From positions 630,001-694,000 of the forward strand of contig NZ_CP019334.1 in assembly GCF_002163675.1 (NCBI RefSeq): 64,000 nucleotides of DNA, read 5' to 3'. The notes under the pieces were generated by a model. The model saw nothing but the letters and a program-made list of their open reading frames with translations. It was not told the DNA's origin and ran no database searches. This document shows positions 27,472 to 48,290 of this stretch, one piece after another. The first letter of the stretch is position 1; the number at the start of each line of letters is the position of its first letter. This DNA is from Polaribacter sp. SA4-12 (lineage in GTDB: Bacteria > Bacteroidota > Bacteroidia > Flavobacteriales > Flavobacteriaceae). Made by a program: the position numbers and the translations under genes.

Positions 27472-28476
27472 ATGGAAACACCAAATAACGAGGAAGTACA
27501 AGAGAATTTAGAATTCGAAAATAGAATTGATTTATCTGAATTACAAGAGAGTGTTTTCAAGATAAAAAAGGAATTAAAAAAAGTCATTGTTGGTCAAAAA
27601 GATATGATGGATTTGTTAATCGTTTCCCTCCTTGCAGATGGTCATGTTTTAATTGAAGGTGTACCTGGAGTAGCAAAAACAATTACTGCTAAATTACTAG
27701 CAAGAACAATTGATGTTGGTTTTAGCAGAATTCAGTTTACACCAGATTTAATGCCTTCAGATATTTTAGGAACTTCTGTTTTTAATGTAAAAACCTCTGA
27801 TTTTGAGTTTAAAAAAGGTCCTATTTTTTCAAGCATGATTTTAATTGATGAAATTAATAGAGCACCTGCAAAAACACAAGCTGCTTTGTTTGAGGTTATG
27901 GAAGAAAAACAAATTACAATTGACGGACAAACCTTTAAAATGGATGAGCCTTTTGTAGTTTTAGCAACCCAAAACCCTATTGAACAAGAAGGAACCTATA
28001 GATTACCAGAAGCACAATTAGATCGTTTTTTATTCAAAATAAACGTAGCATACCCAAACGCTGATGAGGAATTAGAAATCCTTTTAAAAGAACAAGCCTT
28101 AGAAAACACAACAAAAGCAAGTAAAATAGAAACGGTTATTACTGGTGAGAAAATTGTTGAATTTAGAAATTTAGTCAATCAGATTAAAATTGAAGGAAAT
28201 TTACTAAAATACATTGCAAACATTGTAGTAAACACACGTTCTAACTCGTTTTTATATTTAGGCGCTTCACCAAGAGCAAGTATTGCTATTTTAGGCGCTT
28301 CTAAAGCTTTTGCAGCTATTGAAGGACGCGATTTTGTAACTCCAGAAGATATTAAAAGAGCTACAATTCCTGTTTTAGAACACAGAGTTATCGTAACACC
28401 AGAAAGAGAAATGGAAGGTTTAACTAGTAAACAGATAATAGTACAGATTATTGAAGCTGTGGAAATTCCTAGATAA
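27472..28476 (+). CDS. MoxR-family AAA ATPase
   Basis: A 334-residue AAA+ ATPase. Walker A is GVPGVAKT (63-70), Walker B ILIDEIN (123-129), sensor 1 is VLATQNPIEQEGTYRLPEAQ, followed by LDRFLFKI, and sensor 2 is in ASPRASIAIL. MoxR ATPases act as chaperones or activators of proteins with VWA or DUF58 domains, here presumably the DUF58 protein at 29865. In this genome the two genes are separated by a 1247 bp IS110 insertion 13 bases after the MoxR stop, so the downstream gene may depend on transcription through or from the element. Confidence 0.93.
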   Translation: METPNNEEVQENLEFENRIDLSELQESVFKIKKELKKVIVGQKDMMDLLIVSLLADGHVLIEGVPGVAKTITAKLLARTIDVGFSRIQFTPDLMPSDILGTSVFNVKTSDFEFKKGPIFSSMILIDEINRAPAKTQAALFEVMEEKQITIDGQTFKMDEPFVVLATQNPIEQEGTYRLPEAQLDRFLFKINVAYPNADEELEILLKEQALENTTKASKIETVITGEKIVEFRNLVNQIKIEGNLLKYIANIVVNTRSNSFLYLGASPRASIAILGASKAFAAIEGRDFVTPEDIKRATIPVLEHRVIVTPEREMEGLTSKQIIVQIIEAVEIPR

Positions 28477-28549
28477 ACATTCACGTCATCCTATGTTTGT
28501 AAAAATAAGGATCTGTTTTTAAAAAGCTTAAATTAGATTTAATATTTAA

Positions 28550-28705
28550 CAAGAAAAGTAAGGGTAAAGGAAAAGATTATAGTCCGTCATTTGTCATTAA
28601 AGACCGTTCGCAATGCTAATCACTTTACCCCTTACTACATAAACTTGAACAGATCATTAGACCATCAAGTCTGTATTTAGGATTGATAAGTAAATGTAGT
28701 AATTT
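28550..28705 (+). ncRNA. Predicted IS110 bridge RNA (copy 1)
   Basis: Two stem-loops can be drawn. Loop 1: AAGGGTAAAG (28560-28569) pairs with CTTTACCCC (28623-28631), and GATTA with TAATC. The loop shows TTTGTCATT (28590-28598) and CGCAATG (28609-28615), which read the left half and the complement of the right half of target TTGTCATTGCG. Loop 2: TTACTACAT (28632-28640) pairs with ATGTAGTAA (28694-28702). It shows ACAGATCAT (28649-28657), identical to the element's right end, an AGAC/GTCT hairpin, and AGGAT (28679-28683), complementary to its left end ATCCT. This is the target-loop plus donor-loop layout known for IS110 bridge RNAs. Transcript ends are estimates. Confidence 0.8.
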
Positions 28706-28724
28706 TTCTATAAAAACATTTGAT

Positions 28725-29696
28725 ATGAGTAAAATTATAGGAATTGATATTAGTAAGCAAACCTTTGATGTTTCTTATTTAGAAAAAGATAAATGGATTC
28801 ACAAAATTTTTAAGAATCAAAATACAGGTTTTGAGCAATTTATTAAATTGATTAGTGCATCAGACTGGATTGTAATGGAGGCTAGTGGTCCTTATTATGT
28901 TCAGTTAGCAACTTTTTTACATGCATCTAGTTTTAATGTATGTGTATTAAATCCTTTGATAATTAGAAGATATAGTCAAACAAGATTATATAGAGCAAAA
29001 ACAGATAAAAAAGACGCAAAGACAATTGCCGAATATGGTGCTCAATATGAGTTAAAAAGATGGTGTCCAGAGAGTAAACCTAGTATAGAAATTAAACAAC
29101 TTTACACAGCTTTAGAATTACTAAAAAAACAAAAACATCAAACAAAAAGACAATTAGAATCCTTTGAAGCAACAGGTTTGTTGAGTTCGGATCTTAGAAA
29201 AGAATTAAAACAAGTACTAATATTATTAATAAGACGTATTGATAAGTTTGAAAAAAAGATAGAGCAAATAGGAAGATTAGCTTATAAAGACACGGTTGAA
29301 AGAATAAAAACGATACCAGGAATCGGGCTAAAAACGGCTATTATGATGAGTGTTATTACAGATAATTTCACAAAATTTGATAACTATAAACAACTGACAG
29401 CTTTTGTAGGATTTAGTCCAAGGCTATATCAATCAGGAACAAGTGTAAAAGGTAAAGGACATATTTGTAAAATGGGCAAACCTCAAATTAGAAAACTTTT
29501 GTATTTATGTAGTTGGTCTGCAAAAAGAGTAAATAAAAATTGTATCGAAATGTATGAACGACTTAAAGAAAAAGGAAAACCCGAGAGAGTAATTAAAATT
29601 GCAATAGCTAATAAATTAATAAAGCAAATTTTTTCTATTGCGACTAACAAACAAATTTACAATGAAAATCATCAAAACTTATATTTTCTGAAATAA
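28725..29696 (+). CDS. IS110-family transposase, copy 1
   Basis: A 323-residue DEDD/serine recombinase. The RuvC-like domain has D8 (IIGIDIS), E52 (VMEASG), D94 and D97 (AKTDKKDAKT). The C-terminal Tnp domain has TIPGIGLKTAIMM (helix-hairpin-helix-like), FVGFSPRLYQSGTSVKGKG with the probable nucleophile Ser near 240, and CKMGKPQIRKLLYLC. I start it at the ATG at 28725, because the in-frame TTG at 28683 lies inside the bridge-RNA donor loop. With the upstream RNA it should join the circular element junction to a guide-specified target without loss of bases. The protein sequence is identical in all three copies, so activity is recent. Confidence 0.95.
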   Translation: MSKIIGIDISKQTFDVSYLEKDKWIHKIFKNQNTGFEQFIKLISASDWIVMEASGPYYVQLATFLHASSFNVCVLNPLIIRRYSQTRLYRAKTDKKDAKTIAEYGAQYELKRWCPESKPSIEIKQLYTALELLKKQKHQTKRQLESFEATGLLSSDLRKELKQVLILLIRRIDKFEKKIEQIGRLAYKDTVERIKTIPGIGLKTAIMMSVITDNFTKFDNYKQLTAFVGFSPRLYQSGTSVKGKGHICKMGKPQIRKLLYLCSWSAKRVNKNCIEMYERLKEKGKPERVIKIAIANKLIKQIFSIATNKQIYNENHQNLYFLK

Positions 29697-29736
29697 AAGA
29701 AATTTTAACAATAAATAATAGTTTTTTAACACAGAT

Positions 29737-29812
29737 CATTGCGAGGAACGAAGCAATCTGTTCATTGTCTAGTTCTAGTAAAGTAGAGATTGCTTCGTAC
29801 CTCGCAATGACA
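29737..29812. repeat. Hairpin repeat unit, interrupted by IS110 copy 1
   Basis: CATTGCGAGGAACGAAGC ... GAGATTGCTTCG, TACCTCGCAATGACA. Together with CGTCAT left of the element (28484-28489) it rebuilds one ~82 bp hairpin unit. Both arms here are of the TTGCGAGG type. Confidence 0.8.
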
Positions 29813-29864
29813 AAAAGAAACGAGTACAATTACACGATTAAACAAATAAACAATTACACATTTT

Positions 29865-31199
29865 TTGAAACATTTATACAACACTTTATTCTTAAACAAC
29901 CGGTTTTTCTACTTTTTAGGAGGAATCGCACTCCTTTTTGTCGTTGGTTTCTTTATTCCCTTCTTTTTTGAGGTTTCTAAAGTGTTGCTTTTCATTTTAG
30001 CTGTTTTAGTTTTGGTTGATATTTTTATTTTATACAATACTAAAGATGCAATAACCATAAATCGTCATTTACCAGAAAGGTTGTCAAATGGAGATGTGAA
30101 TAAAATCTCCATGCAATTAAAGAATCTATACGGATTTCCTGCACATCTTTCTATTATTGAAGAGATTCCATATCAATTTCAAAAAAGAGACTTCATTTTT
30201 AAGTTGATTTTATCCAACAAGGAAGAAAAAACAATTCATTACGACTTAACTCCTACAGAAAGAGGTGTTTATTTATTTGGGAACATCAATGTATTTTCAA
30301 GCTCACCACTACAACTAGCAACTAAAAAGTACGTTTTAGGAAAACAAAAAGAACTTAAATGTTATCCTTCATTTTTAAAATTAAGAGAATTCGATTTTAG
30401 AGCATTTAACAATGACGCTATTTCTTACGGAACAAAAAAGGTGAGAAGAATTGGTCACTCTTTAGAGTTTGAACAAATTAAAGAATATGTTTCTGGAGAT
30501 GATATTCGTTCTCTAAATTGGAAAGCTACTGCAAAGAGAAATCAGTTAATGATCAATCAATATGTAGAAGAAAAATCGCAACCCGTTTATTCAATTATCG
30601 ATAAAGGACGCGCGATGCAAATGCACTTCAATAATTTAAGCTTATTAGATTATGCAATCAATGCAACGCTAGCAATTAGCAATGTGATCCTAAGAAAACA
30701 AGACAAAGCAGGAATGCTATCTTTTTCAACAAAGTTGGAAGACTGGGTAGTTGCAGAAAAAAGAAACTCTCAAATGAGTTTAATTTCTGAAGCATTGCAT
30801 AATATAAAAACAGATTTTTCAGAATCTGATTTCAGTACTTTATACGCAGTTGTTAAAAGAAAAATAACACATAGAAGTTTATTAATTTTATACACAAACT
30901 TCGAAACTATGGATGGTTTAAAAAGACAACTCCCTTATTTGAGAGCGTTGGCTAAAAACCATTTAGTGCTAATTGTATTTTTCGAAAATACAGAACTAGA
31001 CACATTGATAACTTCCAAAAAAGAAGATGTTTTAGGTGTTTATGACAGTATTATTGCTGAAAAATTTATGTACGAAAAGAAAAGTATTGTAAAAGAGTTA
31101 AAAAAATACGGAATTCAGTCTGTTTTAACCAAACCAGAAAACTTAACAGGAGATACAATTAACAAGTATTTAGAATTAAAATCGAGAGGTCTTTTTTAA
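29865..31199 (+). CDS. DUF58-domain protein of the MoxR cluster
   Basis: A 444-residue membrane-anchored protein. Two N-terminal helices (~15-32 and ~37-53) precede a beta-rich extracytoplasmic part and the DUF58 core: VRRIGHSLEFEQIKEYVSGD, DIRSLNWKATAKRNQLMINQ, then a VWA-like fold (VYSIIDKGRAMQMHFN, DYAINATLAISNVIL). The start is a TTG at 29865 giving MKHLYNTLFLNNRFFYFLGG; no ATG fits, and this N-terminus is normal for flavobacterial members. It presumably works with the MoxR ATPase upstream. An IS110 element and a hairpin repeat now lie between them, so its expression may be altered. Confidence 0.85.
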   Translation: MKHLYNTLFLNNRFFYFLGGIALLFVVGFFIPFFFEVSKVLLFILAVLVLVDIFILYNTKDAITINRHLPERLSNGDVNKISMQLKNLYGFPAHLSIIEEIPYQFQKRDFIFKLILSNKEEKTIHYDLTPTERGVYLFGNINVFSSSPLQLATKKYVLGKQKELKCYPSFLKLREFDFRAFNNDAISYGTKKVRRIGHSLEFEQIKEYVSGDDIRSLNWKATAKRNQLMINQYVEEKSQPVYSIIDKGRAMQMHFNNLSLLDYAINATLAISNVILRKQDKAGMLSFSTKLEDWVVAEKRNSQMSLISEALHNIKTDFSESDFSTLYAVVKRKITHRSLLILYTNFETMDGLKRQLPYLRALAKNHLVLIVFFENTELDTLITSKKEDVLGVYDSIIAEKFMYEKKSIVKELKKYGIQSVLTKPENLTGDTINKYLELKSRGLF

Positions 31200-46259: not shown

Positions 46260-46589
46260 ACTTTTTTCTCTCTAAAGATAAATGATTTTGTCATTATGAG
46301 GAAATAGGACGAAGTAATCTGTTTATATTGAGTTACAAATTAAGAGATTGCTTCGTTCCTCGCAATGACAAACGTACTGTCATTACGAGGACGATAGGAC
46401 GAAGTAATCTGCTTGTTTTGAGTTACATATTATGAGATTGCTTCGTAACCTCGCAATGACAAATGTGCTGTCATTACGAGGACGATAGGACGAAGTAATC
46501 TGTTTGTTTTGAGTTACTAATTAAGAGATTGCTTCGTAACCTCGCAATGATCTGTGTTAAAAAACTATTATTTATTGTTAAAATTTCTT

Positions 46590-47561
46590 TTATTTCAGAA
46601 AATATAAGTTTTGATGATTTTCATTGTAAATTTGTTTGTTAGTCGCAATAGAAAAAATTTGCTTTATTAATTTATTAGCTATTGCAATTTTAATTACTCT
46701 CTCGGGTTTTCCTTTTTCTTTAAGTCGTTCATACATTTCGATACAATTTTTATTTACTCTTTTTGCAGACCAACTACATAAATACAAAAGTTTTCTAATT
46801 TGAGGTTTGCCCATTTTACAAATATGTCCTTTACCTTTTACACTTGTTCCTGATTGATATAGCCTTGGACTAAATCCTACAAAAGCAGTCAGTTGTTTAT
46901 AGTTATCAAATTTTGTGAAATTATCTGTAATAACACTCATCATAATAGCCGTTTTTAGCCCGATTCCTGGTATCGTTTTTATTCTTTCAACCGTGTCTTT
47001 ATAAGCTAATCTTCCTATTTGCTCTATCTTTTTTTCAAACTTATCAATACGTCTTATTAATAATATTAGTACTTGTTTTAATTCTTTTCTAAGATCCGAA
47101 CTCAACAAACCTGTTGCTTCAAAGGATTCTAATTGTCTTTTTGTTTGATGTTTTTGTTTTTTTAGTAATTCTAAAGCTGTGTAAAGTTGTTTAATTTCTA
47201 TACTAGGTTTACTCTCTGGACACCATCTTTTTAACTCATATTGAGCACCATATTCGGCAATTGTCTTTGCGTCTTTTTTATCTGTTTTTGCTCTATATAA
47301 TCTTGTTTGACTATATCTTCTAATTATCAAAGGATTTAATACACATACATTAAAACTAGATGCATGTAAAAAAGTTGCTAACTGAACATAATAAGGACCA
47401 CTAGCCTCCATTACAATCCAGTCTGATGCACTAATCAATTTAATAAATTGCTCAAAACCTGTATTTTGATTCTTAAAAATTTTGTGAATCCATTTATCTT
47501 TTTCTAAATAAGAAACATCAAAGGTTTGCTTACTAATATCAATTCCTATAATTTTACTCAT
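46590..47561 (-). CDS. IS110-family transposase, copy 3
   Basis: A 323-residue protein identical to copies 1 and 2. At nucleotide level one silent change stands out (GCAGTCAG against GCTGTCAG in the other two, minus-strand reading of the codon for Ala in QLTAFVGF). Start ATG is complementary to 47559-47561. Catalytic residues D8, E52, D94, D97 and the Ser of SGTS are present. Confidence 0.95.
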   Translation of the reverse strand: MSKIIGIDISKQTFDVSYLEKDKWIHKIFKNQNTGFEQFIKLISASDWIVMEASGPYYVQLATFLHASSFNVCVLNPLIIRRYSQTRLYRAKTDKKDAKTIAEYGAQYELKRWCPESKPSIEIKQLYTALELLKKQKHQTKRQLESFEATGLLSSDLRKELKQVLILLIRRIDKFEKKIEQIGRLAYKDTVERIKTIPGIGLKTAIMMSVITDNFTKFDNYKQLTAFVGFSPRLYQSGTSVKGKGHICKMGKPQIRKLLYLCSWSAKRVNKNCIEMYERLKEKGKPERVIKIAIANKLIKQIFSIATNKQIYNENHQNLYFLK

Positions 47562-47580
47562 ATCAAATGTTTTTATAGAA

Positions 47581-47736
47581 AAATTACTACATTTACTTAT
47601 CAATCCTAAATACAGACTTGATGGTCTAATGATCTGTTCAAGTTTATGTAGTAAGGGGTAAAGTGATTAGCATTGCGAACGGTCTTTAATGACAAATGAC
47701 GGACTATAATCTTTTCCTTTATCCTTACTTTTCTTG
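47581..47736 (-). ncRNA. Predicted IS110 bridge RNA (copy 3)
   Basis: Guide words are the same as in copies 1 and 2. One base in the 5' arm of the target-loop stem differs (AAGGATAAAG against AAGGGTAAAG), which removes a G-C pair or shifts the bulge. Confidence 0.75.
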
Positions 47737-48290
47737 TTAAATATTAAATCTAATTTAAGCTTTTTAAAAACAGATCCTTATTTTTACAAACATAGGATGA
47801 CAAAAGTACTGTCATTACGAGAACGATAGGACAAAGTAATCTGTTTGTTTTGAGGTACATATTAAGAGATTGCTTCGTTCCTCGCAATGACAAATGCACT
47901 GTCATTACGAGGACGATAGGACGAAGTAATCTGTTTGTTTAAAGTTACAAATTATGAGATTGGTTCGTAACCTCGCAATGACAAATGCACTGTCATTACG
48001 AGGACGTTAGGACAAAGTAATCTGTTTGTTTTGAGTTTACAATTAAGAGATTGCTTCGTTCCTCGCAATGACAAATGCACTGTCATTACGAGGACGGTAG
48101 GACGAAGTAATCTGTTTGTTTTGAGTTACATATTATGAGATTACTTCGTTCCTCGCAATGACAAATGTGCTGTCATTACGAGGACGATAGGACGAAGTAA
48201 TCTGTTTGTTTTGAGTTACACATTATGAGATTGCTTCGTAACCTCGCAATGACATAAAATATTAATTAGTTCCTAGGCAAGAAAATAAAG

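Follow-up and report, generated by a model that had tools for sequence, protein, structure and literature searches.

An IS621-like IS110 element with a predicted bridge RNA at REP-like palindromes of Polaribacter sp. SA4-12

The element and the sites it occupies

The window analysed here, a stretch of 64,000 nucleotides from contig NZ_CP019334.1 of Polaribacter sp. SA4-12 (positions 630,001 to 694,000), contains three copies of an IS110-type insertion sequence, of which the first, interrupting a REP-like palindrome, is the subject of this report. Its parts, and the two further copies, are as follows.

28485..28487, + strand: left part of the interrupted REP (GTC tag), present in 14/14 copies
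28488..28489, + strand: core dinucleotide AT at the left junction (other copy 29738-29739), common to target, donor and all four predicted guides
28490..29739, + strand: IS110-type insertion sequence, 1250 bp with the AT core counted once, at the right end; ends set by comparison of 14 own-genome copies
28492..28499, + strand: TATGTTTG, promoter-like box in the left end; in the circle, the right end would supply its upstream partner (TAG in this element)
28725..29696, + strand: IS110 recombinase gene, 323 aa (Pfam, NCBIfam, alignment to IS621)
29731..29739, + strand: right end of the element, the same word as the predicted left donor guide, ACAGATCAT (own-copy comparison)
29740..29811, + strand: right part of the interrupted REP dimer (TGCGAGGAACGAAGCAATCT ... 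CTCGCAATGAC), from the joined flanks and from uninterrupted counterparts at loci L108 and L114
44619..45868, - strand: second copy of the element (same-genome copy search)
46547..47796, - strand: third copy of the element (same-genome copy search)

The recombinase scores above the cut-offs for PF01548 and PF02371 in Pfam and for NF033542 in NCBIfam, and it aligns with the solved proteins of IS621 (8wt6, E 1.7e-25) and ISCro4 (9t56, E 1.4e-26). Its residues D8, E52, D94, D97 and S237 (then G238) align with the DEDD motif and serine named as the catalytic residues of IS621 (PMC11208158), and the protein thus has the RuvC-like DEDD and Transposase_20 parts, with a catalytic serine, of an IS110-family recombinase. 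The element also shows the family trait of a longer non-coding region upstream of the gene, with 235 bp in the left end (28490-28724) and 43 bp past the stop codon (29697-29739). Searches for recombinase relatives returned 12 plasmid and 13 phage records, all below 60% identity; inoviruses and other small phage genomes carry distant relatives (30-34% identity) annotated as transposase.

A 156-base probe (28550-28705) located 14 copies in the 3.99-Mb genome, 11 identical to it, two at 99% and one at 98%, and all were taken with their flanks. Length is exactly 1250 bp in 10 of the 13 copies measured and 1248, 1249 and 1251 bp in the rest; the remaining copy, L021, was missed by the search pattern used for lengths and is included in the flank counts. 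When the same genome was searched for the left-end RNA independently of the transposase (150 of 1476 first-look candidates scored), the 14 strong matches were the 14 elements, with one further weak match (E 0.96). The second and third copies in the window adjoin tandem arrays (46289-46550 and 47797-48254) of units of about 90 bp, each unit with REP words, and they may therefore have inserted independently into adjacent units of a single array.

The DNA to the left of the element reads GTCAT in 14/14 own copies and is unrelated between copies beyond that point, while the right flank, counted from the core, is ATTGCGA in 12 of the 14, ATTACGA in one and ATTTCGA in one. The target reconstructed in the initial annotation was therefore right. 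GTCAT also stands on the left of all seven copies in Hel1_85, and insertion, as expected of the IS110 family, is specific for a short sequence and involves a short core common to target and donor. Joined across the element, the flanks form a REP-like dimer, ACGTCATTGCGAGGAACGAAGCAATCTG...AGATTGCTTCGTACCTCGCAATGAC. Uninterrupted GTCATTNCGA words number 144 in the genome, 63 of them GTCATTGCGA; insertions lie at the guide-matching variant in 12/14 cases against 63/144 uninterrupted words (binomial P 0.0016, to be read in the knowledge that some words lie in tandem arrays and are non-independent).

Is the interrupted site found whole elsewhere? Among 58 genomes searched, 20 loci (our own included) carry the neighbouring gene, and in the 19 same-genus genomes compared the ACAGATCAT end word is absent from the gap to the next gene (0/19). 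Alignment by eye places an uninterrupted REP dimer in the orthologous gap of L108 and L114, the others having different REP words or none. In L123, of the same genus, this gap holds another REP-type array, three tandem copies of a unit of about 110 bp that each start with GTCATTTCGAG.

Of 47 insertion sites (14 own, 7 from Hel1_85 and 26 others), 29 contain, within 55 bases, the reverse complement of the five bases counted from the core, compared with 8.6% in shuffles, and the core AT is therefore the start of a hairpin in most sites; the own genome contributes 13/14 and Hymenobacteraceae sites 0/4. Such sites resemble published REPs in which a CGTC motif, frequently TGTC, is left unpaired and the stem nearly always starts with AT (PMC3733652). 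For (C)GTC-tagged REPs that paper reported no dedicated transposase and few, fortuitous associations with other transposase genes.

The predicted bridge RNA and its guide words

The initial annotation had read two stem-loops in the non-coding left end and had taken them for a bridge RNA. Folding, alignment and matching to ends and sites give the following predicted features.

28550..28705, + strand: predicted bridge RNA, folded part, target loop then donor loop (folding, alignment, consensus structure)
28584..28590, + strand: predicted left target guide CCGTCAT, as assigned here (match across relatives; the apical hairpin excludes most of a second candidate word)
28593..28604, + strand: target-loop apical hairpin GTC ATTAAA GAC (helix 3, columns 60-62/74-76; GTC 28593-28595, GAC 28602-28604)
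28608..28614, + strand: predicted right target guide TCGCAAT, reverse complement of ATTGCGA (match and tracking across relatives)
28649..28657, + strand: predicted left donor guide ACAGATCAT, identical to the right end 29731-29739
28659..28672, + strand: donor-loop apical hairpin AGAC...GTCT (helix 4, 95.8% of cells paired)
28678..28683, + strand: predicted right donor guide TAGGAT, which in reverse complement reads ATCCTA, the core followed by the left end (28488-28493)

The two stem-loops are supported by the fold of 28545-28724 (minimum free energy z -2.57, with 3 of 200 shuffles as good) and by covariation among 24 homologous elements, in whose alignment RNAalifold finds 17 consensus pairs, 16 of them with a compensatory double-sided change. 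Consensus cells are paired in 88.4% of cases, compared with 70.9% in shuffles and 33-51% when partners are slid by 1-3 columns, and the covariation score is 0.535 against 0.234 in shuffles, none of 500 of which scored as high; further pair types, when counted, give a weaker signal (4/500 as high). Four helices make up the consensus: two close the target loop, one is apical in the target loop (94.4% of cells paired, double-sided change at 3/3 pairs) and one is apical in the donor loop. The predicted RNA thus has, like that of IS621, two internal loops, and covariation shows the apical stem loop of each to be conserved. The outer stem closing the donor loop appears in single folds of the element and is absent from the 24-sequence consensus. 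No Rfam family reached its gathering score in 28400-29900, and the four sub-threshold hits were unrelated.

Guides were compared with ends and sites in 28 copies, made up of one of the 14 own copies, seven of 27, ten, four and two relative loci from separate searches, and four plasmid loci (five of 12 fetched, four used). Left out were the other 13 own copies and six of the seven Hel1_85 copies (same loop as the one used), L034 (its contig ends before the right end), L102 (GT at the core of its right end), L036-L048 (distant or partial) and the 29 loci of a sister clade, L050-L078, with other ends and targets. The members of this sister clade, Flavobacteriaceae IS110 elements at 36-41% identity, have a similar left-end RNA, seem to insert into another repeat (TATACAC...TGTTG), and have left ends that start near CTTAAGTTTG and right ends near CAGTTCTT.

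Both words that the initial annotation had read in the donor loop stand, ACAGATCAT as the equal of the right end and AGGAT, within TAGGAT, as the complement of the left end. All 28 copies have a right donor guide that fits the core and left end along 5-7 nt, and 20 have a left donor guide identical to their right end. Where the ends differ between relatives, the RNA follows an A/T change in the right end and a C/A/G change in the left, in keeping with the IS621 arrangement of donor guides complementary to the joined ends. The eight left-guide exceptions comprise L086 and L091 (word disrupted), L097 and L098 (last base G) and L099, L100, L101 and L103, which have an extra C and, in L101 and L103, another last base as well. 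L086 and L091 come from one genome (G887) but share only 86% identity; they may not be active, or may rely on a different word.

The same four elements bear on the core. The guides had been proposed to overlap in CAT; AT is indeed common to all four, and CAT is ruled out because L099-L101 and L103 keep AT but carry T before it in their targets.

For the target loop, the left guide was defined as the 12 nt up to and including the AT that precedes the apical hairpin, and the right guide as the 10 nt whose last two are the AT of an ATG invariant in the 24-element alignment; these anchors were set after the flanks had been seen, and the choice of register was not blind. GTCAT occurs twice around this loop, in CCGTCAT and in the overlapping word TTTGTCATT (28590-28598), and the latter, which also holds GTCATT, is where the left guide had been placed at first. 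This element alone cannot separate the two, and it is the relatives that favour the first word: in 22 distinct loops it fits better than any register of the second in 18, ties in two (L031, L079) and is worse in two (L030, L094). In addition, TTTGTCATT is doubtful as a guide because most of it lies in the covarying apical hairpin, and the order of stem, left guide, stem loop and right guide described for IS621 (PMC11208158) also speaks for the first word. That the system works as proposed with TTTGTCATT as its left guide, the first GTCAT being coincidental, is hence very unlikely. On the other side of the loop, the initially proposed word CGCAATG (28609-28615) stands, with the predicted guide at 28608-28614 matched across relatives.

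Over the 22 distinct guide-target pairs among the 28 copies, and with anchors that were not blind, the left guide matches its own site at 4.95 of 7 non-core positions and the right guide at 5.0 of 6, compared with 3.34 and 2.97 when guides and sites are cross-matched. None of 20,000 permutations reached the observed match for either half, although this permutation ignores relatedness, and we therefore analysed a recombinase tree of 23 elements, from which 11 edge-disjoint pairs were drawn. The recombinases in this tree were cut automatically, those of L035 (228 aa) and L096 (250 aa) being short and those of L030, L031 and L088 having extra N-terminal residues. In these pairs the guides of both members follow differences in the target, at 15/20 for positions +1 to +5 and 6/9 for -1 to -4; tracking fails at +6 (0/6) and at -5 to -7 (3/20), and a guide changed without a change in target in six cases over all positions. 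The contrast between tracked and untracked positions suggests guides of about 6 nt on the left and 7 nt on the right, core included, and the left guide of 8-9 nt initially proposed is not borne out. Loop words of homologues at other targets thus mostly change with the target near the core and seldom do so farther out.

Individual copies make the same point. The unbroken match from the core is at least 7 nt for the right guide in 20/28 copies and at least 6 nt for the left in 22/28, reaching 9/9 on the right in L032 and 9/9 on the left (TCAACCTAT) in L103, and right-hand words as different as ATTCTGA (L030), ATTCCGG (L033) and ATTGCGC (L086, with ACGACAT on its left) are found. Genome G852 carries two elements, L087 and L092, that despite 98.6% identity differ together in both guides and sites, the former with guides TTTCGTCAT/TCCGGGAT at CCCGTCAT-CCCGGA, the latter with TTTCGGTCAT/TTCGGGAT at CCGGTCAT-CCCGAA. 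The target guides are thus complementary to both site strands and vary with them, as in IS621, with a right-hand mismatch in the first seven bases of 8/28 copies (L022, L035, L081, L085, L094, L095, L096 and L097; those of L085, L096 and L097 could be G-T wobbles). Mismatching copies were kept in all counts. L094, whose left junction is GTAAT rather than GTCAT and both of whose guides mismatch the flanks, is perhaps a rearranged or decayed copy. The seven Hel1_85 copies share one loop and vary at one base of their sites (T-N-CGA), three of seven matching, and insertions of elements with the same RNA thus differ at a target base without a change in the guide.

On another view, the left end would encode a structured RNA that serves the transposase gene as a leader or regulator, and the recombinase would locate REPs purely through protein-DNA contacts; small RNAs of the IS110 element ISPpu9 do regulate its transposase (PMC8450116), and REP targeting by IS110 elements was known before bridge RNAs (PMC1525189). 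A regulatory leader, however, leaves unexplained why target and donor words change jointly with sites and ends, above all in L087 and L092, and we give this explanation only the slimmest chance. Chance matches in AT-rich DNA deserve next to no credence: the words are only 6-9 nt long and the target loop folded alone gives no signal against shuffles (z -0.19), but the permutations, non-blind anchors notwithstanding, the compensated helices and the changes tracked in edge-disjoint pairs all disfavour them.

Proposed mechanism and the AT-core lineage

We therefore return to the reading of an IS621-like IS110 element with a bridge RNA that directs insertion into a REP-like palindrome via an AT core, to which we assign a probability of roughly 0.93. 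That the IS110 recombinase has beside it a bridge RNA whose target and donor guides overlap at the AT core is strongly supported at the level of sequence, from which the ends, targets, guide matching across relatives, RNA structure, catalytic residues and, in relatives, the junction promoter spacing were read; the circle, transcription, RNA binding and strand exchange are proposed by analogy with IS621. In this scheme the element would leave as a circle, the joined right and left ends would form a promoter, and the bridge RNA would be expressed from the left end and bind the recombinase. Its first internal loop would pair with both REP strands, CCGTCAT with the bottom strand on the left and TCGCAAT with the top strand on the right, the two target guides overlapping at the core AT, and the second loop would pair likewise with the joined ends of the element through ACAGATCAT and TAGGAT. 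The recombinase would then exchange strands at AT, leaving the element inserted as GTC-AT / AT-TGCGA.

A promoter of the Bacteroidota type has the boxes TTTG and TAnnTTTG. When the ends are joined, TTG lies exactly 20 nt before the left-end box in 25/28 copies, and is absent from the junction of this element and of Hel1_85 (TAG instead) and from that of L100. The left-end box is an exact TAnnTTTG in 18/28 copies and a near form in the rest, and in some relatives (e.g. L033, L087) the junction boxes are also readable as a sigma-70 pair. A promoter formed at the circle junction is described for IS621 (PMC11208158, PMC11208160).

It is tempting to speculate further, at about even odds, that this AT-core lineage has specialised on (C)GTC-tagged REPs by dividing labour between its guides. 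The left guide and core would read the shared GTC-AT, and the longer right guide would read the variable stem and be rewritten between REP families; the Hymenobacteraceae plasmid copies would then have had both halves rewritten to sites of another type. Copies also lie on contigs labelled Ignavibacteriota and Desulfobulbaceae, these members being single metagenome-assembled contigs and the rest Bacteroidota. If such a division of labour holds, natural guide evolution would be directly readable here, and the lineage would amount to a set of ready-made AT-core recombinases with different targets.

Comparison with known IS110 systems

The initial annotation called this bridge RNA/recombinase pair new. 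As a member of the IS110/IS621 kind it is new, with its AT core and mainly (C)GTC-type REP targets; as a kind it is not, the bridge or guide RNA mechanism having been in print since 2024 (PMC11208160, PMC11187229), and the pair may already figure in ISfinder or in the set of thousands of orthologues analysed in PMC11208160. Our literature search found no paper joining an IS110 bridge RNA with Flavobacteri- hosts. What the element adds is an AT-core lineage whose target, donor and junction are legible from sequence, copies within a single genome that are almost identical yet have guides and sites that differ in step, and so amount to natural reprogramming, and a tie between IS110 elements and (C)GTC-tagged REPs.

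Association with REPs has been recorded for other IS110-family elements, namely ISPa11 (6/6), ISPpu9 (7/7), ISPpu10 (7/7) and ISRm19 (4/4) (PMC1525189), which differ from the present one in hosts and sequences. Since Sinorhizobium meliloti, the host of ISRm19, is listed with CGTC REPs (PMC3733652), insertions of IS110 elements into REPs of this type may have been recorded before. The element also resembles the seekRNA elements (ISEc21-type IS110 and ISEc11-type IS1111), whose guide RNA comes from the non-coding region upstream of the transposase gene (PMC11187229). Natural re-direction in a close relative has been described there for ISEc11/ISXne4; these, of the IS1111 type, have their two target words in reversed order, whereas the order here is that of IS110.

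The closest likeness is to IS621 of E. coli, with which the element shares its catalytic residues, a left-end RNA with target then donor loop (PMC11208160, PMC11208158), the build of each loop as stem, left guide, stem loop and right guide (PMC11208158), a core within all four pairings and insertion into REPs. The circle-junction promoter of IS621 may have a counterpart in the relatives with the conserved spacing, this element being one of the three exceptions to it. The element differs in having the core AT in place of CT, tracked guides that span about 6 nt on the left and 7 nt on the right, as against 8-9 and 4-7, a (C)GTC-AT type REP as target, and junction boxes that in most relatives fit a spacing of the Bacteroidota type. 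IS621 is less efficient when its core is changed to AT, GT or TT (PMC11208160), and recombinases that naturally use AT may therefore be useful.
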